Below are positions 11,758-29,906 of a stretch of DNA of 64,000 nt, piece after piece (the first letter of the stretch is position 1; each line of letters opens with the position of its first letter). A program made the translations under genes and the position numbers. Source of the DNA: Flavimarina sp. Hel_I_48 (GTDB lineage Bacteria; Bacteroidota; Bacteroidia; Flavobacteriales; Flavobacteriaceae). The stretch lies in contig NZ_JPOL01000002.1 of NCBI RefSeq assembly GCF_000733945.1, forward strand, positions 3,608,894-3,672,893. Reading direction: 5' to 3'. A model generated the notes under the pieces. That model did not search any database. It was not told where the DNA came from and saw nothing but the letters and a program-made list of their open reading frames with translations.

Positions 11758-14700
11758 TTAGTTTTTAATAAACTTGATTACTTTCTTAGAAGATGCATCT
11801 TTTACAATCTCAACAAAATAAATACCCGTCTGTAGAGAACTCGTTTCAAGAGTATATGAGGTATCAAAGGCGTTATATTTTTTAGAAATCAATGTTGCCC
11901 CGTTTATATTTTTGACAGCTATCTCTAGGGAACGCTCCGTATCACCAATTCCTGTAAGGGTAATATTATCTTTAGTGGGATTTGGATATACTGTAATGGA
12001 TTCCCCAAAACGATCTCCATTAGAAAGATTTGCATCTTCTTCAATAGTACTTAGCGTTGTTTCTGGCTCTATGCGCAAGAAGCGTGTATTATCCCTTAGA
12101 TCTGATTCGCTATAACCACCATTTGCTACTATTAATTTATCATCAAAAATTCCCGCTACAGGAGCCAATAGTCGTTCTGGGAGTTCGCAACGCTGCGTCC
12201 ATTGATCAATAGCTGGATCGTATTCTGTAATATCATCGAAAAAGAAAATACCGCGACGACCTCCTATAATTATAATTTTACCATTATGGACAAGGGTACA
12301 CGGTTCAAAATGAGAACGGTCTGCGAATAAATTTCGTTTCCGTGTCCAGGTATCAGTTGCAGGATCATAAACATGAAGGTAGCGCAAGTACTGTTTTTCA
12401 TAATCGTGGCCGTATTGACCACCAATTGCATAAATAAGACCATTAACAGTAGCCGCGCTCAAGTGGTTTCGTCCATAAGGTAATGGAGCAGCAGGAATCC
12501 AACCTGCGGCAAGATTTTCGGGGTCTAGTACGTAGTGTTCATCAACATCTGTGGTACGATCTGGTAAAAGGCCACCAAAGAAATGGATTTTACCATTTGC
12601 ATATGCTGCAGCACCTGATCCACGCGGTGCGGGTAGGGATGGTCCTGCCCTCCAGGAATCCGTTGAGGTACTGTAGATTTGAACCTTAGCTGTTGCGACA
12701 CCTGGATTGTTACCAATAAAACCGCCTATAAGCCAAACATCGTCATTAACTTGGGCTTTCCCCATATGAGTTGCGGGAAATGGCATAGGAGCACCTGTAG
12801 TCCAAGTATTATTTTTCACATCGTAAATTTCAGTCACACCCGTAATAATAAAATTATCGAGAAAACCTGCAAACGAGTATAATTTATCTCCTACAGTAGC
12901 AGATTGTGCTTCAAGCTTTTTTAGTTTACTGGGAGCTAATTCTGTCCATGCACAAGGATCTTGTCCCTCTTCACCAAGTTCACCATTGCCGTATAACTGA
13001 ATACCGCAAAGTTGGGGTCTGTTTACAGTGGCGCCAAAATTTAAATTGAGTTCGCCATCGCTTACATTGACAGTATATGTTCGCGTGAGGGCAGTTCCCG
13101 TGCCCACTTCTTTGGTAATATCAAAACCTTCAATTGCACTCTCGTTCTCTAGTTTGTAATTGAAAACACGTTTTCCTATTCCGCCTGGCCCACTTTTAGG
13201 AGCACCAAACCACAATTCAGCGAAATGCAATTTGACCTGATAGGTACCATTAGTTACTGGAAATGCATAGCTAAAATTGCCCTGATCATTGTTTGTGCTA
13301 CGTTCAGATTTATAAAGTGCCTGTATATTCGTGTTTTTGATTTCGTTAAAGGTAGTAGTGCTGGTTTTGGAAGAGCCCGTAGTGTATGCATCCTTCTGAA
13401 ATACAGTACCGTTTAGGGTTAAGCTAGGACCCCCTACATTAAAGCTAGCCATTAGTGGAAATTCATCTTCCTTACGCTCATTTTCTTTGAAAACTTCGAT
13501 CGCCGCAATTTTTGGACGATCTTTAGAGGCACTAAAGTCAATGTTTAGAATCCCGTCTTTAACAGATGTACTATATGTTTTTATTGAAGCTGTCATAGTA
13601 CCCAACTCCTTGATCATATCTAAATCTACCAGTTTAGCTTTATTTTCAACATTTACACTGAAGATGCGTTTGTTTACGCCTCCTGAGCCACCACCCGGAA
13701 CACCCCAGTAGATTTCGGCAAAATGGAGCGCAACACGATATTCTCCATTTTTTACCGGTATGGCGTAGCCAAAACTTCCCTTATCAACACCTGCTGAACG
13801 CTCAGATTTGTAAAGTTCGTCTTCCGTAGTATTTTTGATATCTTCAATTTGTTGATTTTCAAATACTGAGGTTTTCCCCGTAAAGTAAGTATCGGCAAGA
13901 AAATTTTTTCCATTTACAACGAGGGCAGAGCTTCCGGCATTTATACGAGTTACCGCTGTATCATCAACCGGATCTACTTTGATGATCTCGATGGCAGAAA
14001 TTTTAGGTTCGTCTTTTGTGGATGTGAGATCTATGTTTAACTTACCATCTCTAACATTTACGCTATAAGATTTGATTAGAGCGGTTTCTGAACCCACTTC
14101 TCTTATAATATCCAGGTCTGACAACCTCTTTTGATTTTCAATGGAAATATTGATGAGCCGTTTTCCTTTGCCTCCTGAGCCACCTCCCGTTGCGCCCCAG
14201 TAAATTTCGGCAAAATGGCATTTAACTTTATAGTTGCCATTTTCAACAGGGATAGTATAGGAAAATCCACCACTGCCGGTACCTGTAGATCGCTCTGACC
14301 TGTAGATTGCATCTTTCTCAGTATCATGTATGGCAGGAATACCATAATTTGTATACTTTCTTCCACCATTAAAATAGCTATCTGCACTAAAGCTCATACC
14401 ATCAATTTCGATTTGCGGTCCGCCCGTATTGATACGTATTGCTTCTGGTTCATTAGCCTCTGGTTCTTCAATAATTTCCAGTGCAGAAAGTTTAGGTTGG
14501 TCTTTAGAGCCGATAAAATCTATATTGAGGATACCATCTCGTACAGTGACCAAATATTCTTTTTGCAGGGCATTCATAGTTCCCACTTCTTTAATGATAT
14601 CAAGACTGTTGAGAACTTTTTGGTTTTCTAAGGTTGCGCTAAAAACACGTTTGCCATTGCCACCAGAACCGCCGTTTGTGGATCCCCAATAAATTTCAGC

Positions 14701-15078
14701 GAAATGAAGTTTAACCTTAAATGTTCCATTTGGAACGGGTATGGCATAATTAAAGGTATTTTTATTGGCAATCGTACTGCGTTCAGTCAAATAAAGGTCA
14801 TCGCGAGTGGTATTCCCTATATCCTTGATATGGTCATTTTTAAAAGTTTTACCATCACCCTTGTAGTAATTATCTTTGATGAAATGTTCATTCCCATACC
14901 GTATCTCATCACCACCACTATTAATCCGTAACACAAAAGGATCATCCTTAATCTCTGAAGTAGTATCAGATGTGTCATTTGTAGAAGGGTTATTGGATAT
15001 GTTAGAGAAAGACGTCACTGAAGTGAAGGAGGTGACCGTAATGGTAAATAAAAGAATGTAATTTGAAAAAAATCTCAT
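11758..15078 (-). CDS. Secreted tetra-malectin, kelch-propeller protein with type IX secretion sorting domain
   Basis: An 1106-residue modular surface protein. After a signal-like N-terminus come four malectin domains at about residues 49-203, 213-366, 376-530 and 543-696. Each has the pattern INxGG near its start, SERS, (K/R)V-LHFAEIYWG (LHFAELWFG in the fourth), GKR-(V/I/L)(F/I) and a closing strand with D-x-P-K/Q-(L/I/C). A kelch beta-propeller follows (about 710-1000; repeated YxxGGF/L, D-P-A-x-x-x-W). Residues 1028-1106 (VYPNPTKDNITL to GIYFVEI) are a type A C-terminal sorting domain for the type IX system. Malectins bind diglucose or other glycans, so the protein likely binds polysaccharide outside the cell. 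It sits alone between a PKS region and the polysaccharide locus starting at 15449. No enzymatic motif was seen. Confidence 0.9.
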   Translation of the reverse strand: MRFFSNYILLFTITVTSFTSVTSFSNISNNPSTNDTSDTTSEIKDDPFVLRINSGGDEIRYGNEHFIKDNYYKGDGKTFKNDHIKDIGNTTRDDLYLTERSTIANKNTFNYAIPVPNGTFKVKLHFAEIYWGSTNGGSGGNGKRVFSATLENQKVLNSLDIIKEVGTMNALQKEYLVTVRDGILNIDFIGSKDQPKLSALEIIEEPEANEPEAIRINTGGPQIEIDGMSFSADSYFNGGRKYTNYGIPAIHDTEKDAIYRSERSTGTGSGGFSYTIPVENGNYKVKCHFAEIYWGATGGGSGGKGKRLINISIENQKRLSDLDIIREVGSETALIKSYSVNVRDGKLNIDLTSTKDEPKISAIEIIKVDPVDDTAVTRINAGSSALVVNGKNFLADTYFTGKTSVFENQQIEDIKNTTEDELYKSERSAGVDKGSFGYAIPVKNGEYRVALHFAEIYWGVPGGGSGGVNKRIFSVNVENKAKLVDLDMIKELGTMTASIKTYSTSVKDGILNIDFSASKDRPKIAAIEVFKENERKEDEFPLMASFNVGGPSLTLNGTVFQKDAYTTGSSKTSTTTFNEIKNTNIQALYKSERSTNNDQGNFSYAFPVTNGTYQVKLHFAELWFGAPKSGPGGIGKRVFNYKLENESAIEGFDITKEVGTGTALTRTYTVNVSDGELNLNFGATVNRPQLCGIQLYGNGELGEEGQDPCAWTELAPSKLKKLEAQSATVGDKLYSFAGFLDNFIITGVTEIYDVKNNTWTTGAPMPFPATHMGKAQVNDDVWLIGGFIGNNPGVATAKVQIYSTSTDSWRAGPSLPAPRGSGAAAYANGKIHFFGGLLPDRTTDVDEHYVLDPENLAAGWIPAAPLPYGRNHLSAATVNGLIYAIGGQYGHDYEKQYLRYLHVYDPATDTWTRKRNLFADRSHFEPCTLVHNGKIIIIGGRRGIFFFDDITEYDPAIDQWTQRCELPERLLAPVAGIFDDKLIVANGGYSESDLRDNTRFLRIEPETTLSTIEEDANLSNGDRFGESITVYPNPTKDNITLTGIGDTERSLEIAVKNINGATLISKKYNAFDTSYTLETSSLQTGIYFVEIVKDASSKKVIKFIKN

Positions 15079-15448: not shown

Positions 15449-16456
15449 ATGAATGTTAACTCTTTTAAAGAGCTTGAAAGCAAGCATGTTCTGGTTACAG
15501 GTGGTGCAGGCTTTATAGGTTCCAATCTGGCTGAAAAGCTAATAGATTTAGGTGCTCATGTCGTATGTCTTGATAATTTTGCTACAGGTCATCGTAGAAA
15601 TTTAAACAGACTTATTAATAATGAGCGTTTTAAGCTTATTGAAGGAGATATACGCGATCTTGAAACTTGTAAAAAAGCCTGTGAGGGGATTGACTTTGTT
15701 TTGCATGAAGCAGCTCTGGGCTCTGTTCCTCGTTCACTTAAAGATCCTATTACAAGCAATGATGTAAATGTGGGAGGTTTTCTAAATATGCTAGTGGCCG
15801 CAAAAGAGGCAAATGTTAAACGTTTTGTTTATGCGGCAAGTTCATCAACGTATGGCGATTCTAAAGCATTGCCAAAAGAAGAAGATAATATAGGTAAACC
15901 GTTATCCCCTTACGCGATTACAAAATATGTCAATGAACTATATGCTGATATTTTTCATAATGCCTATGATTTAGACACTGTAGGATTGCGTTATTTCAAT
16001 GTTTTTGGAAGAAAACAAGATCCTAATGGAGCCTACGCGGCTGTTATCCCTAAATTTGTTATGCAGCTAATGGCGCATGAATCACCGGTTATAAATGGAG
16101 ATGGAAACTTTTCAAGGGATTTTACTTACATTGATAACGTGGTGCAGATGAATTTGCTTGCACTTACTGTTAAAGATTCAAAAGCACTAAATCAGATATA
16201 CAATACTGCATTTGGAGAGCGAACGACCCTTAATGAGCTCGTTGTTGCCTTAAAGAAAAACCTATGCAAGTTTGATACAAAGATTGCTGATATTGACCCG
16301 ACTTATGGTGAGAACCGGGCAGGGGACATACCACATTCCCTTGCGTCTGTGGACAAAGCCAAGAGGTTATTAGGTTATGCGCCAGAATATGACATCCAAG
16401 AAGGACTGCAGGAGGCTGTTACCTGGTACTGGGAAAATTTAAGTGATAAAAAATAA
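15449..16456 (+). CDS. wbpP: UDP-N-acetylglucosamine 4-epimerase (WbpP/TviC-like)
   Basis: A 335-residue extended SDR epimerase. The NAD motif is GGAGFIG (residues 18-24), the catalytic pair is Tyr155 and Lys159 in [11 protein letters not shown], and [14 protein letters not shown] is the signature of the WbpP/TviC group that interconverts UDP-GlcNAc and UDP-GalNAc or their uronic acids. [20 protein letters not shown] also fits. It is paired 32 bases upstream of a WbpO/TviB-like dehydrogenase; together the two make UDP-GalNAcA, a common acidic donor for capsules and O-antigens. It opens the main polysaccharide locus. Confidence 0.88.
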
Positions 16457-16488: not shown

Positions 16489-17769
16489 ATGAAAGAAATT
16501 AAAATCGCTATTATAGGTCTGGGCTACGTGGGACTTCCTCTCGCACGATTATTTGCTACTAAGTATGCAGTTGTTGGCTTCGATATTAATCAAAAAAGGA
16601 TTGCATCGTTACAAAAAGGGCACGATGATACTCTAGAAGTTGAAGATGATGTGCTACAGGGTGTAATGAAGAAAGGGTCTGACGACAAAAATGGCCTTTA
16701 TTGTTCTGCACAGCTTGAGGATATTGAGGATTGTAACTATTATATTGTTACTGTCCCTACTCCAGTAGATAAAAATAACAGACCAGACCTCACTCCCCTT
16801 TACAAAGCCAGTGAAACAGTAGGCAAAGTGCTTAGCAAAGGTGACATTGTTATCTATGAATCCACGGTTTATCCAGGAGTTACGGAAGAAGATTGCGTTC
16901 CTGTTCTTGAACGCCAAAGTGGATTGAAGTACAATACTGATTTTTTTGCTGGTTATTCCCCAGAACGTATAAATCCAGGTGATAAAGAACATACAGTTGA
17001 TAAGATACTTAAGGTAACATCAGGATCAACACCTGAGGTTGCTGAGAAAGTAAATGCATTGTATGCAACGGTCATTACAGGAGGGACATATCTTGCAGCA
17101 TCAATAAAAGTTGCGGAGGCCGCGAAAGTAATAGAAAATTCACAACGCGATATTAATATCGCTTTCGTAAATGAACTTGCTAAAATCTTCAATCTTATGA
17201 AGATAGATACTTCCGAAGTTCTTGCAGCGGCTGGTACAAAATGGAATTTCCTGCCTTTTAAGCCTGGTCTAGTGGGTGGGCATTGTATAGGTGTAGATCC
17301 CTACTATTTAGCACAGAAAGCTCAGGAATTTGGTTACCATCCAGAGATTATTTTAGCCGGAAGACGTCTTAATGATAGTATGGGACAATATGTAGCTTCT
17401 GAAATAATTAAACTAATGGTGCAGAAGGATATTAAAATAAAGGCTTCTAAAGTATTGATTTTAGGTTTTACATTTAAAGAAAATTGTCCTGATGTTCGCA
17501 ATACACGTGTAGTTGATGTGGTTGAAAGTTTGAAAGAATTCGGGGTTGATATTACTATTTTTGACCCTTGGGCAAGTTCAGAAGATGTACATCATGAATA
17601 TGGTCTTACAACAACCAAGCAAAAACCTACAGATAAATTCGATGCAGTTGTTCTTACAGTCGCGCACAACGAATTCCTAGCAATGGACCTGAAAGATTTT
17701 ATGAAGGATGAAGCAGTCCTTTACGATGTAAAATCTATTTTGACAGAGCCTGTTAGTGGACGTCTATAA
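16489..17769 (+). CDS. wbpO: Nucleotide sugar dehydrogenase (WbpO/TviB-like)
   Basis: A 426-residue UDP-sugar 6-dehydrogenase. The N-terminal NAD motif is IIGLGYVGLPLA, VTVPTPVD is the usual central motif, and the catalytic thiol is Cys266 in GGHCIGVDPYYLA. The C-terminal domain has ILGFTFKENCPDVRNT. It oxidises the 6-hydroxyl of UDP-GlcNAc or UDP-GalNAc to a carboxylate in two NAD-dependent steps. With the epimerase directly upstream it should supply UDP-GalNAcA or UDP-GlcNAcA, so the polysaccharide is probably acidic. Substrate choice between WbpO (GalNAc) and TviB (GlcNAc) activity cannot be decided here. Confidence 0.9.
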   Translation: MKEIKIAIIGLGYVGLPLARLFATKYAVVGFDINQKRIASLQKGHDDTLEVEDDVLQGVMKKGSDDKNGLYCSAQLEDIEDCNYYIVTVPTPVDKNNRPDLTPLYKASETVGKVLSKGDIVIYESTVYPGVTEEDCVPVLERQSGLKYNTDFFAGYSPERINPGDKEHTVDKILKVTSGSTPEVAEKVNALYATVITGGTYLAASIKVAEAAKVIENSQRDINIAFVNELAKIFNLMKIDTSEVLAAAGTKWNFLPFKPGLVGGHCIGVDPYYLAQKAQEFGYHPEIILAGRRLNDSMGQYVASEIIKLMVQKDIKIKASKVLILGFTFKENCPDVRNTRVVDVVESLKEFGVDITIFDPWASSEDVHHEYGLTTTKQKPTDKFDAVVLTVAHNEFLAMDLKDFMKDEAVLYDVKSILTEPVSGRL

Positions 17770-18115
17770 ATCTAGTAAAGAAATAATATATTAATTTAAA
17801 TTGATTAAGCACTATTTTGTTTACTGACTTATCTTTTGTTTATTTATGCTGTTTGCGTATTGTCTATGTTTGGTGTGAACCGTTAAATAAGAATAAATAA
17901 AGATTTATGTGATCTTTTTCAAAAGATAATAAACGGGAAGTCTGCACATCTAATACACTTGCTTTCAAGTTTAAGTAGGAGGGTTCTGAGGTTAACTTTA
18001 TCATTCTAATATAAGCTTCAAATTGCAACGATATGTATCTTTGAAAATTATCGTTACTTTTAAACCCCGCAAATCATACTATGAATATTGACGATTATAA
18101 ATTTACTACAACGCT
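17770..18115 (+). other. Intergenic region with promoter and short leader frame before flippase
   Basis: This 346-base AT-rich gap divides the nucleotide-sugar pair from the assembly genes. It carries a perfect TATCTTTG element at 18036-18043 and, after it, a 12-codon frame (18081-18119) that ends across the flippase start. No terminator hairpin is evident after the dehydrogenase. Nothing else was recognised. Confidence 0.5.
18036..18043 (+). promoter_or_regulatory. Candidate -7 promoter element before flippase operon
   Basis: TATCTTTG fits TAnnTTTG exactly and lies 37 bases before the leader ATG at 18081. A matching TTTG at -33 is not present, so this rests on one element and on its position at the head of a long co-directional gene run. 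Confidence 0.4.
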
Positions 18116-18119
18116 TTGA
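18081..18119 (+). CDS. 12-codon upstream frame overlapping the flippase start
   Basis: An ATG at 18081 opens a frame encoding MNIDDYKFTTTL and stops with TGA at 18117-18119. The stop overlaps the TTG start of the flippase (TTGA at 18116-18119), the arrangement used for translational coupling. It lies directly downstream of the candidate -7 element. Its translation is not proven; it could be a leader that delivers ribosomes to the weak TTG start, or a chance frame. Confidence 0.3.
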   Translation: MNIDDYKFTTTL

Positions 18120-19639
18120 GTCAAATTAAAAAGGGCGCTGCGCTCAATTACATAAATATTGTTTTGACCAACATCGTTGGTCTGGTTCTTACTCCCTTCA
18201 TAATTTCCCAACTGGGACAATCTGAATATGGATTGTACATTATGGTGGGTGCACTGGTCAGTGGTTTATCTGTTTTAGACATTGGTATTGGTAATGCTGT
18301 GGTGCGTTTTACTGCTAAGTATAGAGCTGAGGAAGATAAAAAAGGTGAAGAGAACTTCTTAGCCACTGTCTTTTACATATATACCGCGATTTCTTTAATC
18401 ATCTCCATCGCAGGTATCGTACTCTATTTCAATCTGGATTTGCTATATGATCAGACCTTCACCTCGGAAGAGTTAAGGAAGACAAAAATCATGTTTGCTA
18501 TACTTATATTCAACCTTGCACTAACCTTACCTGGAAGTGTTTTTGGTGCATATTGCTCAGCCTATGAGCAATTTGTATATCCTAAAACGGTTAAAATAAC
18601 GAGGTATATAATTCGTTCGCTACTTGTAGTGGGTATCTTAATGTATGGTGCCGGCGCTATTAGTCTTGTAATAGTTGATACTTTAATGGGAATTAGCGTA
18701 GTGGTTGCAAATGCCAATTATTGCTTTAAGAAACTTGATATAAAGATTAAATTACATAGTCTTCAAAAATCCCTTATTTTCAGTATTTTTTCATATTCGA
18801 TTTGGATATTCGTTTTTGCAATCGTGAGTCGCTTACAGTGGCAGGCGGGTCAAATAGTGCTAGGTACTGTAGATAGCCCTGCGGTGGTAGGTATATTTTC
18901 GGTAGGTGTGACCTTAGGTACATATTACGGGGCCTTTTCAACAGCTATCTCAAGTGTGTTTTTACCTCGTGCCACAAAAATGTTTGTAAAGAGTGCTAGT
19001 GGTGAGGAGCTTACAGATATGATGATCAAAATAGGTAGGATTTCATTATTGGTTTTGTTCTACATTCTTATCGCATTTTTCCTCTATGGAGAGCAATTTG
19101 TATATTTATGGGTGGGATCTACCTATACTGATACTTTTTCCGAAATTTATTGGATCGCTGTATTGATCATGCTAGCTTATACAATACCATTAGTACAAAA
19201 TTTTGGAAACGCAACACTTGAAGCTCAGAATAAATTACGTTTTAAGGCTATATTATATCTTGTATTTGCAGTACTAGGCGCTGGATTTGGATATTACTTA
19301 GCACAGTCTTACGGTGCAATAGGTATGATCTGTGGTACTATTAGTGGATGGGTCGTTGTTCAAATAGTAATGAATTTTTATTATCATAATGTTATTAATC
19401 TTAATATTATAAGGTTTTTTAAAGAATTAGCCCATAAAATTTTGCCAAGTGCACTTGTTGCATTGGCCTTAGGTTATGCTATACGCTATATACCGGGCGA
19501 AGGATGGTTGAATTTTGTGTTAAAGGCCGTTTTATTTAGTATTTGCTATATGGGCATTATTTATAAGTTTGGTACTATTCCCTACGAAAAGAACCTCTTT
19601 CAAAATTCTTTTAATACGCTAAGAAAAAATAAATTTTAA
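18116..19639 (+). CDS. Polysaccharide flippase (Wzx/MATE-like)
   Basis: A 507-residue integral membrane protein with about 12-14 hydrophobic helices and the N-terminus SQIKKGAALNYINIVLTNIVGLVLTPFII typical in pattern of polysaccharide-export flippases. It should move the undecaprenyl-linked repeat unit across the inner membrane. The start is a TTG at 18116: upstream in frame there is a stop at 18098 and no ATG or GTG between, and the family usually begins a few residues before the KKGA motif. It is the first of a tight run of plus-strand genes (gaps of 3-35 bases, or overlaps) through 26374. Confidence 0.85.
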   Translation: MSQIKKGAALNYINIVLTNIVGLVLTPFIISQLGQSEYGLYIMVGALVSGLSVLDIGIGNAVVRFTAKYRAEEDKKGEENFLATVFYIYTAISLIISIAGIVLYFNLDLLYDQTFTSEELRKTKIMFAILIFNLALTLPGSVFGAYCSAYEQFVYPKTVKITRYIIRSLLVVGILMYGAGAISLVIVDTLMGISVVVANANYCFKKLDIKIKLHSLQKSLIFSIFSYSIWIFVFAIVSRLQWQAGQIVLGTVDSPAVVGIFSVGVTLGTYYGAFSTAISSVFLPRATKMFVKSASGEELTDMMIKIGRISLLVLFYILIAFFLYGEQFVYLWVGSTYTDTFSEIYWIAVLIMLAYTIPLVQNFGNATLEAQNKLRFKAILYLVFAVLGAGFGYYLAQSYGAIGMICGTISGWVVVQIVMNFYYHNVINLNIIRFFKELAHKILPSALVALALGYAIRYIPGEGWLNFVLKAVLFSICYMGIIYKFGTIPYEKNLFQNSFNTLRKNKF

Positions 19640-19642
19640 AAA

Positions 19643-20920
19643 GTGGAAAGTTTTAAATTATTAAATATCTCTTTTAGTCTTGAAGGTCGAAAGATTAATT
19701 ACGAGTATGAATATAGTAAAGGACTATCTTTTTACTTTGTAGATAAACATAGATATTATACTACCTACGATACTGATATTTCAGACACACCACGTTCCTT
19801 AGCTATAATTCCATTGTTGGCTAATATAATGCCCATTTCTTGGTTGGTAGGATTTGATGTGTATGTGGATGAAATTGATGAAAATTTTGAATCCTCTTTA
19901 AATGTTCTAAAAGAGCAATTTAAAGGATTTCACCCTGATAAGGAACTCGGTGGGAAATTGCATTATAATAAAAAAGTAAAAAATGTCATCAATAATGATG
20001 GTGTTGCTCAGCTTTTTAGTGGAGGTTTGGATTCTTGGGATACTTTTACGCGTAATTATGATAAAGATCCATTTCTTATCTCTATTCACGGCGCAGATGT
20101 TCCTATAAAGGATACGGCAACATGGGAAAAGTTTAAGCGTTTTAATTCTCAGGAACCTATAGTAAATCAGGACAAGCTACATTATATCGAAACCAATTTA
20201 CGGGACTTTTACACCTATAAATTGGATGTTTTGGCAGATCTTGGCTGGTGGGGAACTGTACAACATGGCATGGCCCTTATAGGGGTCTTAGCACCACTAA
20301 GCTACAAATTTGGCTTTAGGTTTATAAATATTGCAGCTTCGGCAACCTCGGAAGTTACTTATACCTGGGGATCTTCTCCAAAGATTGATGAAAATATGCT
20401 CTGGGCAAACACGGTGGTATATCATGAAGGGTATCACCTAAACAGAACCCAAAAGGTTGAAAATGTTGTTGATTTTGTTAAAAGTCAGAATGTTCCACTC
20501 AAATTGAGAGTTTGCTATTCAGACTTACGGGATGGCTATAATTGTAATATTTGTGCCAAATGTCAACGTACCATTCTAACCCTCATATTGCTTAATGAAG
20601 ATCCTAAAAAATACGGTTTTCATATCGTTAAAGATTTCTATAAAAGACTTATGGATAATTTTAACGATGAAACTGTAATGACAGAGGGTGTCAAATATCA
20701 ATGGCAATGTCTTCAGGACATGGCAAAAAAATCAACTGATTTTTTTGTAGCCTATGATCAGGAAAAAGAGGCTAAAGGTATTGCAGATTTTGCTGCGATA
20801 GATCTTGATGAAGTAGTAAATAAGAATGCTAGTAGCGTAAATAGAAAAAAACATTTAAAGTTTATTCTGCGTAAGAAATTCTCAGGCCTTTATAATATAT
20901 ATCAAAGATTAAAAAAGTAA
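19643..20920 (+). CDS. PP-loop ATP-pyrophosphatase-like protein with QueC-like cysteine cluster
   Basis: A 425-residue protein that starts with GTG three bases after the flippase. I do not recognise a named family, but two signatures are clear: a PP-loop LFSGGLDSWDT (SGGLDS at 126-131), and a cysteine cluster Cys291-x9-Cys301-x2-Cys304-x2-Cys307 followed by QRT. The same pair of motifs occurs in QueC, 7-cyano-7-deazaguanine synthase, where the PP-loop adenylates a carboxylate and the four cysteines bind zinc. The N-terminal 120 residues and C-terminal 100 residues have no counterpart in QueC (about 220-250 residues). Placed inside a locus that makes a uronic acid donor, it might activate a sugar carboxylate for amide or nitrile formation; this is inference. 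The next gene is a pyruvyl transferase. Confidence 0.72.
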   Translation: MESFKLLNISFSLEGRKINYEYEYSKGLSFYFVDKHRYYTTYDTDISDTPRSLAIIPLLANIMPISWLVGFDVYVDEIDENFESSLNVLKEQFKGFHPDKELGGKLHYNKKVKNVINNDGVAQLFSGGLDSWDTFTRNYDKDPFLISIHGADVPIKDTATWEKFKRFNSQEPIVNQDKLHYIETNLRDFYTYKLDVLADLGWWGTVQHGMALIGVLAPLSYKFGFRFINIAASATSEVTYTWGSSPKIDENMLWANTVVYHEGYHLNRTQKVENVVDFVKSQNVPLKLRVCYSDLRDGYNCNICAKCQRTILTLILLNEDPKKYGFHIVKDFYKRLMDNFNDETVMTEGVKYQWQCLQDMAKKSTDFFVAYDQEKEAKGIADFAAIDLDEVVNKNASSVNRKKHLKFILRKKFSGLYNIYQRLKK

Positions 20921-20931
20921 AGTCATAACTT

Positions 20932-21915
20932 ATGAAATACGGTTTATTAACATACACGGGACAGCATACTTATAATGTAGGTGATTATGTTCAAAGCCTT
21001 GCTGCAAGACAGTATTTGCCAAAGGTAGATCTACTTATGAATCGCGAAAAACTAGGGGAGTATAAAGGCGATCCTATTAAGCTTATAGCAAATGGATGGT
21101 GGACCCACAATATTCATCACTGGGTACCTAGTGAAGCTATAGATCCATTATTTGTATCTTTTCATATGAATAATACTGCCGCTCCATTTATGTTAAGCGA
21201 AAAGGGTATTGCATATCTTAAAAAACACGCTCCAATAGGTTGTAGAGATAAATTTACAGCACAGATTTTGAATGAAAAGGGTATTGAAGCTTATTTTACC
21301 GGCTGCCTAACCCTGACACTTGATAATTACAAAGTGGATGATTCGCTTAGAGGTGACGATATCTATATTGTAGATCCTTTCTATAACTATCCTAACAGCT
21401 CAGATATCACGGCAAACTTGAAGAATGCTGCACGCGGTGTAGTGAGTGGCGATATATTTAATCTTGGGAAGATCAACAAGACTTTAAAAAAAATCATAGA
21501 TCCTGAGCTTTTAAAATCCGCCAATTATGTAACTCAGGTATTGCCAGAAGGAAAGCAAACTGATGAAGAAAAATTCGCTTACGCTGAGGACTGTCTTAAA
21601 AAATATGCTAAAGCTAAACTTGTAATCACTTCACGTATACATGCTGCTTTACCATGTCTTGCAATGGGAACTCCAGTAATATTTATGAATGCCTTCAACT
21701 CTTTTGTTGACACTTGCAGATTTGATGGAATTTTGGAATTATTCAATCGTGTTGACGTTGCTGATGATGGTAGCTGGACGACTAATTTTGATCTAAAGGG
21801 CAAAATTAACAAGGATACCATGGTAACCAATTATGGATTACACACAAAACTTGCAGAACCTTTAAAAGAGAAGTGTCGTGCCTTTATTGCTTCCGAAAAA
21901 AATGCCGAGAAATAA
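20932..21915 (+). CDS. Polysaccharide pyruvyl transferase family protein
   Basis: A 327-residue protein of the WcaK/CsaB-type family, which transfers a ketal-linked pyruvate from phosphoenolpyruvate to a sugar. Evidence is the N-terminal GLLTYTGQHTYNVGDYVQSL, the CRDKFTAQILNEKGI and YFTGCLTLTL segments, and the C-terminal VITSRIHAALPCLAMGTPVIF, all usual for the family. It follows the PP-loop protein by 11 bases and precedes a GT4 gene by 6 bases. A pyruvate ketal would add a second acidic group to the repeat unit. Confidence 0.85.
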   Translation: MKYGLLTYTGQHTYNVGDYVQSLAARQYLPKVDLLMNREKLGEYKGDPIKLIANGWWTHNIHHWVPSEAIDPLFVSFHMNNTAAPFMLSEKGIAYLKKHAPIGCRDKFTAQILNEKGIEAYFTGCLTLTLDNYKVDDSLRGDDIYIVDPFYNYPNSSDITANLKNAARGVVSGDIFNLGKINKTLKKIIDPELLKSANYVTQVLPEGKQTDEEKFAYAEDCLKKYAKAKLVITSRIHAALPCLAMGTPVIFMNAFNSFVDTCRFDGILELFNRVDVADDGSWTTNFDLKGKINKDTMVTNYGLHTKLAEPLKEKCRAFIASEKNAEK

Positions 21916-21921
21916 AAATCT

Positions 21922-23028
21922 ATGCGTTTACTTTATATAACCAATCAAATCTGTGGTTCTGGCGGTCTTGAGAGAGTACTTTCAATAAAAGCCAGTTATT
22001 TAGCTGATGTTTTAGGTTATGAGGTTCATCTTATCACATTAAATCAAGGGAAAGCATCACTTTTCTATAAGTTTAGTGAGAAATTGCAATACCATGACAT
22101 AAGTGTAAAGGGAAATGCGCTAAGTTATACATATAGGTATGTATCAAAAATCAACCAAAGTATAAAGGAAATCGAACCAGACATAATTTCGGTTTGTGAT
22201 GATGGTTTAAAGGGAATGCTGCTGCCCTTGGTAGTAAACAAGGATATAGCTAAAATCTATGAAAGGCATGTTTCAAAAAATATTGAGATAAAAAGCGAAA
22301 CCCCAACCTTATTTCAGCGTCTTAAAACGCGTCTGGTATTCTCCTTGATGCATTATGGAGCTAAAAAGTTTGATCGCTTTATCGTATTGACTAAAGGGAA
22401 CGCCAAAGAGTGGAAACTATCCAATATTCAGGTAATTTCTAACCCTCTTTCCTTTTATCCCGAGCTGCCCTCAAATTTAGAAGGGAAAAAAGTACTCGCC
22501 GTGGGTAGGCATGCATTTCAAAAAGGTTATGACAGGCTCTTACAGAGTTGGAGTCTTGTAAATAATTCTGGAATAGGGAATTGGAATCTGAATGTTTATG
22601 GGAAAATTGACAACGCATTAGGGTATATTAAGCAGGCACAGGAAATGGATATAGAAGATTCTGTTTCCTTTCATAATCCTGTTAAAAATATAGAAGAAAA
22701 ATATCTTGAATCATCCATTTATGTTATGTCCTCCCGTTACGAAGGATTTGGGATGGTTCTCATAGAGGCAATGGCTTATGGTATACCTTGTATTTCTTAT
22801 GATTGTCCGTATGGTCCAAGTGATATTATAACAGACGGTAAGGATGGTTTTTTAGTTCCAAACGGGGATATTGAAGTTTTCTCTGAAAAATTGATTCTTT
22901 TAATGAACAATGAGTCTCTAAGGAAAACAATGGGAGAGAAAGCCAGAAGCAAAGCATTAAATTATTCTCCAGATCAAATTATGCCTATTTGGGATAATTT
23001 ATTTAAAAATCTTATACATGTATCCTGA
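21922..23028 (+). CDS. Glycosyltransferase family 4
   Basis: A 368-residue GT-B enzyme. The N-terminal segment ITNQICGSGGLERVLS includes the glycine loop that contacts the acceptor side, and the C-terminal domain has VLAVGRHAFQKGYDRLL and SRYEGFGMVLIEAMAYGIP with an intact E-x7-E motif. It ends with an 11-base overlap into the next GT4 gene. It should add one sugar to the lipid-linked unit at the cytoplasmic face; donor and linkage are not predictable. Confidence 0.88.
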   Translation: MRLLYITNQICGSGGLERVLSIKASYLADVLGYEVHLITLNQGKASLFYKFSEKLQYHDISVKGNALSYTYRYVSKINQSIKEIEPDIISVCDDGLKGMLLPLVVNKDIAKIYERHVSKNIEIKSETPTLFQRLKTRLVFSLMHYGAKKFDRFIVLTKGNAKEWKLSNIQVISNPLSFYPELPSNLEGKKVLAVGRHAFQKGYDRLLQSWSLVNNSGIGNWNLNVYGKIDNALGYIKQAQEMDIEDSVSFHNPVKNIEEKYLESSIYVMSSRYEGFGMVLIEAMAYGIPCISYDCPYGPSDIITDGKDGFLVPNGDIEVFSEKLILLMNNESLRKTMGEKARSKALNYSPDQIMPIWDNLFKNLIHVS

Positions 23029-24281: not shown

Positions 24282-25361
24282 ATGATTGATTTTATACCTC
24301 TTGAGTATTACTCTAAAATTTATATTAACTTCTGTTTGCTATTGGTCGTATTAACAGTAGTTCATGCTTACCTGCTTGACCTTGATGATAAAAGAAATCT
24401 AGTTTATTTAAATATCACAGGCTATACCTTACTTGTATTTATTGTTATTTACATGGGTTGGCGTCCTGTAAGTGGTAAGTATTTTATAGATATGAGTACT
24501 TATGCGCATCATTACCGTTATTATCAAGCCGGTAATCCCATCATTTCGCAGAAGGATGTCTTTTTCCATATTTTTATGTTGACCTGCTCTAAGATCATGA
24601 CGGTCAACAATTTCTTTTTGGTTTGCGCTATGGTCTATATCTTACCCATGTATAGGGTGTCAAAAAAGCTCTTCAAGGAATATTGGTTTTATGCATTTTT
24701 GGTTTTTATCGTCTCCTTTCAATTTTGGCCATACGGAGTAAATGGAATTAGAAACGGAATGGGAACATCGCTGTTTTTGTTGGGTGTCTCTTTTTATGAT
24801 AAGAAATTTTGGATGGGCATAGCATTATTATTTGCTGTTCTCGTGCATCAGAGTTTATTGCTTCCCGTTCTGGCGTTTCTCGGGACTTTCATTTATAATA
24901 AGCCTAAATCTTTCTTGATAGGTTGGCTTATAACCATTCCCTTATCTCTAGGGGCTGGAAGTGTTTTTGAAACCATATTCACGGCTATGGGATTTGCCGA
25001 AGATCGCCTGGGTGCCTATCTCAATGGGGAAGAGTCTTCTGGGGGTTTCCGTTTTGATTTCCTTCTTTATAGTGCCTCGGCTGTTTTTACAGGTTGGTAC
25101 TTTATTTTTAAAAGAGATTTTAATGATAAAGTGTACAATCATATATTCAATACCTATTTATTGATAAATGCCTTTTGGATTTTAGTCATAAGGGCCAATT
25201 TTTCTAACCGTTTTGCATATTTGTCTTGGTTTATGATTGGCCTGGTAATTATATATCCATTCTTAAAAGAGCGATTCTATATTTATCAGCATGTCGTCAT
25301 AGGTAGGGTATTGCTTCTTTATTTTGGTTTCACGTATTTCATGTATACCATCTATTACTAA
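24282..25361 (+). CDS. EpsG-family polysaccharide polymerase (Wzy-like)
   Basis: A 359-residue membrane protein with about ten hydrophobic helices. The segment VIYMGWRPVSGKYFIDMSTYAHHYRYY after the second helix, with an Asp and Tyr in the periplasmic loop, and FWPYGVNGIRNGMGTSLFLLG (the R-N-x-x motif) are typical of the EpsG family. This family joins exported repeat units in Wzy-type pathways. Its position between GT4 and GT2 genes and downstream of the flippase supports that role. It should sit in the inner membrane. Confidence 0.85.
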   Translation: MIDFIPLEYYSKIYINFCLLLVVLTVVHAYLLDLDDKRNLVYLNITGYTLLVFIVIYMGWRPVSGKYFIDMSTYAHHYRYYQAGNPIISQKDVFFHIFMLTCSKIMTVNNFFLVCAMVYILPMYRVSKKLFKEYWFYAFLVFIVSFQFWPYGVNGIRNGMGTSLFLLGVSFYDKKFWMGIALLFAVLVHQSLLLPVLAFLGTFIYNKPKSFLIGWLITIPLSLGAGSVFETIFTAMGFAEDRLGAYLNGEESSGGFRFDFLLYSASAVFTGWYFIFKRDFNDKVYNHIFNTYLLINAFWILVIRANFSNRFAYLSWFMIGLVIIYPFLKERFYIYQHVVIGRVLLLYFGFTYFMYTIYY

Positions 25362-25372
25362 AATTCATTACC

Positions 25373-26374
25373 ATGCTACAAGTAAGTATTATCATACCCA
25401 TGTATAATGTGTCTCATTTTCTAAAAACATGCGTGGAATCTGTATTAGATCAACATATGGATGATAACGCATTTGAGGTTCTAATGATTGATGATGGCTC
25501 CCCGGATGATAGCAAAATAGTTGCAGAGAAACTTGCTGAAAAACATGCATTTATAAATGTTTTTTCTCAGGAAAATAAAGGTTTGGGAGGTGCCCGAAAT
25601 ACGGGAATAAAAAATGCCAGTGGTAAATATCTCGTTTTTTTGGATGCAGATGATATTTTGATCTCTGATCAATTATTAGATATTATTCAAATAGCACAGG
25701 TGAATGCGTTGGATATCCTTGAATTCGGTGCGCAGCATATCAATGAAAGTGGAGAAGTTCTAACGACCATTGCAATAGATGGTAAAGGAGAGGTATTGTC
25801 AGGCATGAATTATTATAATGCTACTAAATACATGAATTCAGCCTGTAACAAGCTATACAGGACAGAATTCATGCGTAATAATAACCTACTGTTTCTGGAA
25901 CAGATTTATGCCGAAGATTTTGAATTTAATACAAGATCTTTATTCTTTGCCGAAAGGGTTATGGCAACTAACACTATTGCAGCGCAATTTTTGCAGTCTA
26001 CGGGTTCCATAACAAGAAATAGGGATAAGGATAAAAAAGACAAATATGTAGAGGATCTACAAACCATATTGACAAAAATTGATAGTTTCAGGCAGGATCA
26101 GAAGAGCAATACTTCCGTAGATAAAAAGCTAATGGATAACTACTTTATGGAGCGAATATCTATGGGTAACCTGGGTCTTTTCTTTTTTCTTTTCAAAAAC
26201 AACTACTCTTATAAAGAAATAAAAGAAATTCGTAAAAATTTAATAGAAAAGAATTTGTATCAAAATTCCTACAAAGTCTCAGATAAAAATCGGGATCTAT
26301 TTAGAAGAGTATTACTAAAAAATTTCTTCTTATTTAGATTCATACAGCCACTCAAAAAAGCTATTGGTCAATAG
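25373..26374 (+). CDS. Glycosyltransferase family 2
   Basis: A 333-residue inverting GT-A enzyme. It opens with VSIIIPMYNVSHFLKTCVES, has the nucleotide motif MIDDGSPDDS, the acceptor-side GLGGARNTGI, and the metal-binding FLDADDIL. It starts 11 bases after the polymerase gene and ends the plus-strand run; only four bases separate its stop from the stop of the convergent CapK-like gene. It lacks the C-terminal YPIK block shared by the GT2 genes at 32783-36031. Confidence 0.9.
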   Translation: MLQVSIIIPMYNVSHFLKTCVESVLDQHMDDNAFEVLMIDDGSPDDSKIVAEKLAEKHAFINVFSQENKGLGGARNTGIKNASGKYLVFLDADDILISDQLLDIIQIAQVNALDILEFGAQHINESGEVLTTIAIDGKGEVLSGMNYYNATKYMNSACNKLYRTEFMRNNNLLFLEQIYAEDFEFNTRSLFFAERVMATNTIAAQFLQSTGSITRNRDKDKKDKYVEDLQTILTKIDSFRQDQKSNTSVDKKLMDNYFMERISMGNLGLFFFLFKNNYSYKEIKEIRKNLIEKNLYQNSYKVSDKNRDLFRRVLLKNFFLFRFIQPLKKAIGQ

Positions 26375-26378
26375 GCCG

Positions 26379-27752
26379 TTATCCTATAAGATGCTTTACT
26401 GAATTTTTTACTAATCTAAATTTCCCACTTTTTTCTACATCTATGGTATCCACCTCAGAAATGGTTATCTGCATTTTTCTACCTACGCGTAATTTTATAT
26501 TCTCAATCAGCTTACCCTCTTCCTTTTTATTGTAAATGATGGGATTCGTCTCAATTTTGACAATGATCGCATTTAATTCATCCTGTATGATTTGCATTCT
26601 GTGAACGCCTTCAATATCCTTCAATACGTTAGAAATGTTTCCTAGATTTATTTTTCCATTCTCTGGAGAATATATAAAGTCATCAATTCTTCCCAGTATT
26701 TTTTCTACTAATGGATTATTATTGCCACAAGAACAGGTGTTTTGAGAAAGTTTTATTCTATCACCTACATCGTAGCGAAGTAGGGGAGTACCATAAGAAG
26801 TAAAGGATGTTACAATGAGTCTACCTTCCTGTGCATCATTATCATTGTTATCTAAAACTTCAAGAATCCCACTTTGCATCTCAATATGTAGGTTGTGGTT
26901 TTTACATTCAAAAATAAAAGGGGCGCCTTCAGAGGCAGAATATTGATCATACAAATTGGTATTAAAAAAGCGTTCAATATTTTGTCGTATCTGCGGTGTT
27001 ACCGTTTCTGAAGTCGTAAAAACAGCTTTGATCGTATTTTCAGGAAAATCCAGGTTGTTTTTAAGACCATAGAGGGCAATTTCTGCAATAGAACTGGGAA
27101 AACCTGAAATATACTCTGGCTTAAACTTTTTAAGATTTTCTATATAATATTTTAAATACTCATTCTTAATATGGAATGTGGAGTAGTAGCGTACATTGTG
27201 GTAATGGTCTGTTTTCCAAAAACGATCCTTTTTGAGATCATTTTCCGTTAGAATGTCCTTACCTGAAAACCAGGCGGTTTTTTTTCCCAGTTCGTAACCA
27301 TACCAGGACCTAAAATAATCCAGTAAAGCAAAACGTTCTTCAATATTTTCATGCGTATAATAAACTTTTAGGGATTTTCCCGTTGTGCCACCGGTCTGAG
27401 AAGTTATTCCTTCTTTGTTTATCGTATTAAGAGTGTCAATATTTCTAATAAGTTCCTGCTTAGTCAGTATGGGCAGTTTTTTTAGGTTACTAATTTTATT
27501 AGCTTTAGGTATAGCCTTTAAAATAGGATTAAAATACTCACTGTTTTTACTAACATAGTCTATAAAGGCAGTATATTTTTTAGATTGATTGCTTTTTAAT
27601 TGCTCTAATGAACTGTGGCGATTGGCTTCAAATTCTGCTTTGAACTCCTTGTATTTCCCTCCAAAACGCGCCTTATTTGCTTTTAAATTGTAAAGAGTTA
27701 TAAGTAGGTCCTGAATAAAATAAGGTGCTTTTTTATATATAGAATATTTCAT
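26379..27752 (-). CDS. CapK-like adenylate-forming enzyme (phenylacetate-CoA ligase family)
   Basis: A 457-residue member of the ANL adenylating superfamily, in the CapK branch often found in capsule loci. The phosphate-binding loop is SQTGGTTGKSLKVYYT, then FTTSETV, DQYSASEGAPF and the hinge-side LLRYDVGDRI; a cysteine cluster CSCGNNNP follows, as in phenylacetate-CoA ligase relatives. It likely activates a carboxylic acid for transfer to sugar or lipid, though CapK homologs are poorly characterised. It is transcribed toward the GT2 gene with a four-base gap and lies downstream of the two beta-helix lipoproteins on the same strand, so it may share their transcripts. Confidence 0.82.
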   Translation of the reverse strand: MKYSIYKKAPYFIQDLLITLYNLKANKARFGGKYKEFKAEFEANRHSSLEQLKSNQSKKYTAFIDYVSKNSEYFNPILKAIPKANKISNLKKLPILTKQELIRNIDTLNTINKEGITSQTGGTTGKSLKVYYTHENIEERFALLDYFRSWYGYELGKKTAWFSGKDILTENDLKKDRFWKTDHYHNVRYYSTFHIKNEYLKYYIENLKKFKPEYISGFPSSIAEIALYGLKNNLDFPENTIKAVFTTSETVTPQIRQNIERFFNTNLYDQYSASEGAPFIFECKNHNLHIEMQSGILEVLDNNDNDAQEGRLIVTSFTSYGTPLLRYDVGDRIKLSQNTCSCGNNNPLVEKILGRIDDFIYSPENGKINLGNISNVLKDIEGVHRMQIIQDELNAIIVKIETNPIIYNKKEEGKLIENIKLRVGRKMQITISEVDTIDVEKSGKFRLVKNSVKHLIG

Positions 27753-27968: not shown

Positions 27969-29906
27969 TTAAAGACATTCATTGTTTTGTTCCTCAATAT
28001 CCTCCCATTTAGTGCTTTCCTGTACTCTTATACATTGTTTGTTAGAAGGTACTGCAATAGCATTGTTCAGAAGTGCAATATCTTTGTTTTCATTTATGAG
28101 GTATATACCATCTCTATTCTCTGAGGAAATAAAGTTGTCCTCAATTATCGAATTTTTAGAATCCCAAATTTGTATTCCGGTATTCACGGTGTTTTTCATC
28201 AAGGAAACTCCATTACTGTTAGATATTAAGCCGTGGTATGAGGAATTAAACTCATTGTCTACTAGGTGCGTGCAAAATTTTTCTTGCCCTTCTTTCAAAT
28301 TAATTAAATCAAATCTGAAAGGGTTATTAACAACATCTATAGTATTGTTCTTGAAGAGTACACGGTTAACCGAAGTATAATGTATAAAGATACCACGACT
28401 CTTAGGATCTGTACTTGTGATGGTGTTATTAATGATTTTTGTATTAGAGAAATCCTTACCACTTATTCCTGTCCCGCAATTTTTTATGGTATTATTAGAA
28501 ACCATGTGATCGTCTCCATATATCGACATGGCAACATTAAAGCCTTCAATATAATTACCGGTAACAGTGTTGTTAGAAATCGTGCGAGAGTCTCTCATTC
28601 CCAGTCCCATAGCAAGTTCACTTTCTTTGCGGGCTACCATTCTATTATTTCTTATGATCGAATTGTTGGTATATTTATAGCCTATACCATCTTCTACGTC
28701 ATTGTTTTCAATTGTTATGTTATCGCCCACAGCAATTAGAAAACCACCTCTTGCACCTTCACGCTCAATATTGTTTCTCAATATGACATTTTTAATTTTT
28801 TCATAAGGTACTATTTTTCCATTTTCGCGTTTTCTATAAGCTTCAATATCGATAGCAAATTTTGGGTTAGTTCCTTTTGATTTAGGAGTATCAACCCCAG
28901 ATCTATAGAACTCACTGTCTTCTACAATAATATTGTAACCATCAGTAATGGCCAGATTATTACGTCTACTAGAATCAAATACACAATTTTTGATCACAAT
29001 ATCGTGAGCGGGTATATAATTGGATTTAAAAGCAAATCCTAAACTGTGAACAACTAGACCATCTCCGGTTGCATTAATCATTTTTACACCATCCACAACC
29101 GCAAAAGTAGCAGAATGTAAATCTAAAAGATGTCCCCATTCATGGCTGCCGTATCCTACATACTCGTGTTCATCACGATCTCCATGTAACACACCACCCT
29201 TAATAGTAGCATTTGAGACATTTCTAATAGCTAATAAGCTAGTTTTTTTGGAACTATTTGGAAATGTCCTTAAGTGCGTATTATCGGTCATTTCCAATGT
29301 AAAATCACCTGGAACATTAATAGCCTCTACGGAAGGGTAGAAATTGGGGTTTGTAGGATGCGTAACTTCTGTAATTTCAAAATAGGCATCAAATTCATCA
29401 ATTTTAAAAGTGTGTGCTCCCATACCTTTTACTATTTTCATCAATTCTTCTAAACGGATGCGGTTGTGAAGTGCATTTCTAAAAGTTGTCCTTCCTTGAG
29501 TAAGGTCCCAGCGATCAGCTTCAAAATTGAAGACAGGTTGGATCAGATCTGCGCTTCCTTCAATTTCTAAATCCTTATTTAATAATTGGCCATCTATTTT
29601 ACCGTTATCAAAGACTAAAACACCATTTACGATATCACCTCCATCGTATGTCAAGGTTACATTCTTCTTCAACTGTATAGTTTTGCCATCCAGATCAATG
29701 ATACAGTTTATGGCTTTTTCAGTTCCCTCTTTGATATTGGAAAGTTCAAAATCGCAGTTCTGTACGGTACCAGATTTTTTTTCATGAAGTTCTGCAGTGA
29801 TTGCGTTTAATTCTTCGTTTGTTAGATCTACAATAGACTCTTCTGCACATGATGCTAGAAATAAGGAGCTTAATGTTAAAATGAAGTAATACTTAAAATT
29901 GCTCAT
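27969..29906 (-). CDS. Right-handed parallel beta-helix lipoprotein (copy 1)
   Basis: A 645-residue protein with a lipoprotein signal: hydrophobic N-terminus then LFLASCAEES, with acylated Cys20 and acids after it, which in Bacteroidota favours outer-membrane or surface placement. From about residue 200 on there are short repeats of I-x-N-N-x-I/V, the stacked coils of a pectate-lyase-like helix. It is a paralog of the gene at 30191-32134 along its entire length. Strongly shared blocks are LHGDRD with GSHEWG, FDSSRRNNLAITDG, GTNPKFAIDIEA and YTNNSIIRNN. Acidic and histidine residues in these blocks could form a catalytic or calcium site. Likely a polysaccharide lyase, epimerase or binding protein for the locus product; not proven. 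Confidence 0.82.
   Translation of the reverse strand: MSNFKYYFILTLSSLFLASCAEESIVDLTNEELNAITAELHEKKSGTVQNCDFELSNIKEGTEKAINCIIDLDGKTIQLKKNVTLTYDGGDIVNGVLVFDNGKIDGQLLNKDLEIEGSADLIQPVFNFEADRWDLTQGRTTFRNALHNRIRLEELMKIVKGMGAHTFKIDEFDAYFEITEVTHPTNPNFYPSVEAINVPGDFTLEMTDNTHLRTFPNSSKKTSLLAIRNVSNATIKGGVLHGDRDEHEYVGYGSHEWGHLLDLHSATFAVVDGVKMINATGDGLVVHSLGFAFKSNYIPAHDIVIKNCVFDSSRRNNLAITDGYNIIVEDSEFYRSGVDTPKSKGTNPKFAIDIEAYRKRENGKIVPYEKIKNVILRNNIEREGARGGFLIAVGDNITIENNDVEDGIGYKYTNNSIIRNNRMVARKESELAMGLGMRDSRTISNNTVTGNYIEGFNVAMSIYGDDHMVSNNTIKNCGTGISGKDFSNTKIINNTITSTDPKSRGIFIHYTSVNRVLFKNNTIDVVNNPFRFDLINLKEGQEKFCTHLVDNEFNSSYHGLISNSNGVSLMKNTVNTGIQIWDSKNSIIEDNFISSENRDGIYLINENKDIALLNNAIAVPSNKQCIRVQESTKWEDIEEQNNECL

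Follow-up and report, generated by a model that had tools for sequence, protein, structure and literature searches.

The window analysed here, 64,000 nucleotides of Flavimarina sp. Hel_I_48 (contig NZ_JPOL01000002.1), carries in a polysaccharide locus the gene of a 425-aa QueC-like protein, which is firmly predicted to adopt a PP-loop fold of the QueC type. The protein represents a real QueC-fold lineage that is tied to polysaccharide loci and absent from the literature we searched. We propose, at a probability of about 0.42, that it is a four-Cys (zinc-type) PP-loop enzyme with QatC-like extensions, which modifies a glycan or a lipid- or nucleotide-linked precursor in a pathway step of PS_pyruv_trans, the PF04230 pyruvyl transferase encoded next to it.

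A QueC-type core with extensions

SGGLDS at residues 126-131 and C-x9-C-x2-C-x2-C at residues 291-307, both reported in a first-pass annotation of the window, are present on the 425-aa open reading frame (ORF). Profile-profile comparison of its family with QueC gives E 1.6e-6 and a probability of 90%, and the predicted structure contains the QueC core fold with the Cys cluster inside the PP-loop domain, as the annotation had expected. The protein is almost twice as long as QueC, as had also been claimed, the extra length being N- and C-terminal extensions as in QatC. On the other hand, the motif pair does not define QueC as the annotation had it, since QatC and Cap9 share the core and other catalytic motifs of QueC are missing here.

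All 58 aligned family members have F125, G128, D130, W202, R268, C291, N300, C301, C304 and C307; S126, K271 and K306 are each present in 57. With this set of invariant residues, and with small gaps to the neighbouring genes recurring across loci, the annotated motifs and gene placement are beyond chance. P57, W67 and D79 in the N-terminal extension are invariant as well (53 aligned N-termini), and this extension, folded by itself, gave no significant match in the PDB. Trp columns conserved at 85% or more number 6 of 48 in the family, 1 of 85 in QueC and 3 of 60 in QatC, in alignments of unequal depth; this richness may lend weak support to a sugar substrate.

With QueC (PF06508) the window protein shares the PP-loop, C-x8/9-C-x2-C-x2-C and the core fold, but it is about twice as long, and its Cx9CxxCxxC is one residue longer than the zinc motif C(x)8CxxCxxC of QueC, with the Cys invariant in 58 of 58 members. 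It has no match to the PF06508 profile at E ≤ 1, and 13 of the 58 members match at E ≤ 0.1 (best 0.0014). The QueC signature also includes YxQxHxxE, VPxRN and YPDC, and Tyr35, Arg99 and Tyr131 are required for activity (PMC13329287). All three motifs are absent from the window protein and from the 58-member consensus. With anchoring on adjacent motifs, Tyr35 would fall at about position 149, where 57 of 58 members carry H, W, L, Q, R or K, and YPDC would correspond to about W242-G243-S244; the profile alignment with QueC places this loop otherwise. QueC proper was thus rejected for the missing PF06508 match and motifs, and the host's own QueC for the missing motifs, the location in a polysaccharide operon and the absence of the protein from 12 same-genus genomes.

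QatC of the qatABCD anti-phage defence (NF041925) is the best fold match of the predicted structure (model residues 1-387). Both proteins have about 430 aa, N- and C-terminal extensions on a QueC core, a PP-loop and four Cys, but the Cys spacing is longer in QatC and the window protein belongs to polysaccharide loci. At E ≤ 1 the window protein matches neither NF041925 (5 of 58 members do, best E 0.036) nor the PADLOC QatC model (3 of 58, best 0.0023). Qat defence was rejected because of this and because no qat partner was found nearby, where nine proteins of the window were searched and had no PADLOC match at E ≤ 1e-5. Cap9 of type IV CBASS (cyclic-oligonucleotide-based anti-phage signalling system) has about 185 aa, is encoded next to a CD-NTase and retains the Tyr and Asp residues that recognize 7-carboxy-7-deazaguanine (PMC13279940). 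It was rejected with the window protein being 425 aa long, YPDC absent and no PADLOC match in the nine neighbours.

The uronamide synthases WbpS and WbqG are like the proposed enzyme in role, forming amides on sugar acids in polysaccharide loci with the use of ATP. They belong, however, to the asparagine-synthase family, for which neither Pfam nor NCBIfam gives the window protein a match at E ≤ 1 (an Asn-synthase model is matched weakly by 2 of 58 relatives, best E 0.016), and a WbpS-like amidotransferase was rejected as neither a glutaminase nor an Asn-synthase domain was matched. The N-acetyl sugar amidotransferase WbpG is likewise a PP-loop protein and is required for surface polysaccharide; it is placed in Cluster 5 of PF06508, with the motif CxxC(x)6CxC (PMC13329287), and the window protein has no match to its NCBIfam model at E ≤ 1. 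DUF6395 (PF19932) is matched weakly by 10 of 58 members (best E 0.0014). A DUF6395-annotated protein with a PP-loop-like stretch is encoded (17045-18361) on a Priestia plasmid (L005) that carries two QueC-like genes; its pairwise match is limited to the PP-loop region and not significant (E 0.34).

Against Pfam, NCBIfam and PADLOC as a whole, the window protein has no match at E ≤ 1. A plasmid protein search found 22 records, annotated as hypothetical in 20 of 20 among the matches listed, and a degenerate-pattern scan with one genome per species confirmed at least 372 relatives, with 79 loci kept. The family is sparse, occurring in 3 of 99 related genomes and, across the phylum, in 3 of 395 (host genome included in each). 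Literature on QueC-like, PP-loop, DUF6395, deazaguanine, uronamide and polysaccharide pyruvyl topics names the family nowhere among the matches listed. PMC13329287 maps PF06508 into clusters for QueC, QatC, Cap9, LarE, WbpG-type proteins and GMP synthase; in the parts of its text covered here we found no mention of the present family and, in the main text, no word starting with polysaccharide, glyco, capsul or pyruvyl, lipopolysaccharide being mentioned for WbpG.

Two QueC-like copies lie near each other on the above-mentioned L005 (8443-11056), and likewise in L064, L083 and L086; they are possibly paralogues with different substrates. Incidentally, of the Priestia plasmids pS3 and pS2 (L007 and L008), a 2.6-kb record consists of a whole and a partial family member with no other annotated gene, and the second plasmid of that strain has a partial member, possibly an assembly artefact.

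Linkage to the pyruvyl transferase

Of 94 loci, 66 have PS_pyruv_trans adjacent to the QueC-like gene (in two of them on the opposite strand), and 71 have it no more than 5 kb away. The recurring order in Bacteroidota is epimerase, dehydrogenase, flippase, QueC-like gene, PS_pyruv_trans and glycosyltransferase, and where all four cassette partners are present (45 loci), the flippase is a median 4 nt away and PS_pyruv_trans a median 13 nt.

Within 2 kb in 61 mostly Bacteroidota loci, we counted PS_pyruv_trans in 57, flippase in 54, UDP-sugar dehydrogenase in 41, glycosyltransferase family 4 (GT4) in 21 and epimerase in 6. The corresponding counts in 33 distant loci were 13 for PS_pyruv_trans, 4 for epimerase, 3 for GT4, 2 for flippase (cassette cluster) and 0 for UDP-sugar dehydrogenase, although the comparison is uneven in that only the PS_pyruv_trans profile had distant seeds. 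When profiles were reseeded from the 61 loci only, PS_pyruv_trans dropped to 4 of 33, because the family is too divergent for a profile so seeded, and epimerase, GT4, flippase and dehydrogenase stayed at 4, 3, 2 and 0. The count of 13 is nevertheless supported by a neutral Pfam scan and by the reach of the dehydrogenase profile. That scan covered 87 neighbour proteins at 27 distant loci and found PF04230 most often, in 14 of them (the next family has 6); the 25 families listed, down to those with 2 members, include no nucleotide-sugar dehydrogenase. Distant members are within range of the dehydrogenase profile, which matches dehydrogenases from Priestia and from Cohnella loci at E 1e-137 or better, each at a distance above 6 kb. 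As the scan makes the same point, our odds for the readings below were unchanged by reseeding.

A background was drawn from the host's order. Its 60 related genomes have 37 PF04230 genes and 182 flippase matches (summed), and among the matches listed, at least five PF04230 genes have a flippase no more than 3 kb away, three of them being the QueC-like cassette itself (G000, G027 and G031); another lies at 3.02 kb.

On a 92-member tree, linkage within 5 kb is found in Bacteroidota, Pseudomonadota, Bacillota, Acidobacteriota, Cyanobacteriota and Bathyarchaeota. The linkage label requires 12 changes versus a shuffled mean of 19.9, on a tree where several of the most divergent rows are long-branched and of unsure placement. 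In the PS_pyruv_trans proteins of family loci, N15, G17-D18, R105, R235 and H237 are kept in 72 or 73 of 73 aligned rows (R235 in 73, H237 in 72), and we take residues of this type to bind the donor. PS_pyruv_trans is well, but not perfectly, supported as the partner of the QueC-like protein.

Proposed reaction and other explanations

QueC uses ammonia and two ATP-dependent steps to convert a carboxylate first to an amide and then to a nitrile (PMC13329287). Cap9 links the acid of QueC to a protein N-terminus, and the reaction of QatC is unresolved (PMC13279940). From the computed fold, motifs and linkage, we infer ATP use, adenylation, an amide product and a substrate for the QueC-like protein. 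The PP-loop would bind ATP for adenylation of a carboxylate, after which ammonia or another amine would displace the AMP to give an amide; alternatively, a second ATP might drive nitrile formation in the fashion of QueC. Activation of an acid other than that of QueC fits, as the PP-loop and four-Cys site are kept and the base-recognition motifs are gone. The likeliest carboxylate would be pyruvyl-derived, added by or handled with the neighbouring pyruvyl transferase, and this candidate leads because linkage to pyruvyl transferases extends across phyla; a uronic acid comes second. In its full form, the proposal is a new glycan modification of bacteria and archaea, in which a QueC/QatC-fold enzyme acting with a PF04230 pyruvyl transferase would convert the carboxylate of a pyruvyl substituent or its precursor acid to an amide or nitrile at the expense of ATP. 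This we regard as tentative and on balance doubtful.

Several observations weigh against the proposed enzyme and its pathway. No PS_pyruv_trans is in view in 21 of 94 loci (some on truncated contigs), including all six haloarchaeal loci counted, nor is one annotated in haloarchaeal L009, outside the count; by annotation, flippase or other sugar genes are near in haloarchaeal L004, L009 and L010. Co-divergence singles out no partner, the Pearson coefficient being 0.695 with PS_pyruv_trans versus 0.670 with the flippase. The match to QatC is loose (Foldseek template-modelling score 0.40 by query length, VIA root-mean-square deviation 5.5). Carbamoylethylidene, pyruvamide and lactamide are absent from the literature matched for amidated pyruvyl groups. 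Finally, Ala replaces the final Ser of SGGxDS in 35 of 58 aligned members and in 59 of 94 loci, which is the main ground for doubting ordinary ATP chemistry in part of the family, although the window protein itself has Ser. The same replacement would suit a protein without ATP chemistry that serves PS_pyruv_trans as a scaffold or specificity factor, as would its faster divergence (mean distance 0.459 versus 0.229 for PS_pyruv_trans, 45 loci). We consider such a role improbable, however, given the invariance of D130, R268, N300 and all four Cys and the near-invariance of S126, K271 and K306.

The first-pass annotation proposed that the locus makes a UDP-uronic acid and that this is the substrate. 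The best matches TviB and TviC, though below cut-offs, are in line with the former part, in the form of UDP-N-acetylgalactosaminuronic acid (UDP-GalNAcA), and an amide or nitrile of a sugar carboxylate would be reasonable chemistry. The QueC-like protein might then amidate a uronic acid (e.g. GalNAcA to the uronamide) as a non-orthologous substitute for WbpS/WbqG. In its favour are the TviB/TviC-like genes of the operon, a UDP-sugar dehydrogenase no more than 10 kb away in 48 of the 61 mostly Bacteroidota loci and a known Bacteroidota glycan with uronamide, made by asparagine-synthase-type WbpS (PMC7468200). But the dehydrogenase is within 10 kb in only 2 of 33 distant loci, where the profile does reach Bacillota dehydrogenases, and the Pfam search gave the window protein no glutaminase domain. 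The uronic acid is not favoured as substrate, since within 2 kb the dehydrogenase is found in 41 of 61 and 0 of 33 loci versus 57 and 13 for PS_pyruv_trans (profiles seeded unevenly), and we judge its amidation unlikely.

Sulfur transfer, or amidine or ester formation, on a glycan would be a different PP-loop reaction, but QueC, QatC and Cap9 score higher and have a similar four-Cys site, unlike LarE, whose conserved Cys number one or three (PMC13329287), and we judge this quite unlikely. We also considered that 7-carboxy-7-deazaguanine (or a related acid) is coupled to a protein or amino sugar, as by Cap9 and, as proposed, QatC. This was prompted by QatC being the closest fold and by the gene content of the host, which has a QueE homologue and two QueD/PTPS-type proteins (G000, L104-L106; below curated QueE and QueD cut-offs) but no QueC (PF06508) match at E ≤ 0.001. 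Such coupling is very improbable. YxQxHxxE, VPxRN and YPDC are absent, nine neighbours have no PADLOC match (E ≤ 1e-5), and the commonest N-termini listed for the PS_pyruv_trans and flippase clusters nearby do not include Met-Gly. Of 25 genomes from the host's family, only 2 have a full-length QueC match, so that a missing QueC is not tied to the QueC-like gene.

The locus in the window and its implications

ORF ends and the PF01943 and PF04230 matches agree with the annotated placement of the QueC-like gene, 3 nt after the flippase ORF and 11 nt before that of PS_pyruv_trans, and the neighbouring gene families agree with a polysaccharide locus.

Table 1 Features of the QueC-like gene and its locus in the window
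Feature	Coordinates	Strand	Remarks
Epimerase	15449..16456	+	Best NCBIfam match TviC, 393.1 bits (cut-off 760)
Nucleotide-sugar dehydrogenase	16489..17769	+	TIGR03026 above cut-off; best NCBIfam match TviB, 566.4 bits (cut-off 592)
Wzx-type flippase	18116..19639	+	PF01943; directly upstream in Bacteroidota cassette
QueC/QatC-fold PP-loop protein	19643..20920	+	ORF, GTG start, 425 aa
N-terminal extension	19643..19993	+	Residues 1-117
PP-loop SGGLDS	20018..20035	+	Residues 126-131
Zinc-type cluster (metal predicted)	20513..20563	+	C291-x9-C301-x2-C304-x2-C307
PS_pyruv_trans	20932..21915	+	PF04230, E 4.3e-17; recurrent partner
Glycosyltransferase	21922..23028	+	PF00534
EpsG-family protein, probable polymerase	24282..25361	+	PF14897
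Glycosyltransferase family 2	25373..26374	+	PF00535

At the locus end, a PaaK/F390-synthetase-like adenylate-forming protein (26379-27752, minus strand) scores below NCBIfam cut-offs. Adjoining the locus are two related large proteins (27969-29906 and 30191-32134, minus strand), which from their sequences may be parallel beta-helix lipoproteins. A 1106-aa protein (11758-15078, minus strand) appears to have four malectin-like repeats, Kelch-like repeats and a C-terminal sorting-type tail.

The QueC fold serves in the synthesis of a nitrile base and in the attachment of a base to protein, and the reaction of QatC is still unsettled. A QatC-shaped enzyme outside phage defence offers a means to learn the role of the extensions, and the QueC-like gene with PS_pyruv_trans is a concrete pair for testing. 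That another QueC-fold lineage occurs in polysaccharide loci, and in six phyla does so near pyruvyl transferases, suggests that surface glycans undergo a change of charge not yet described.
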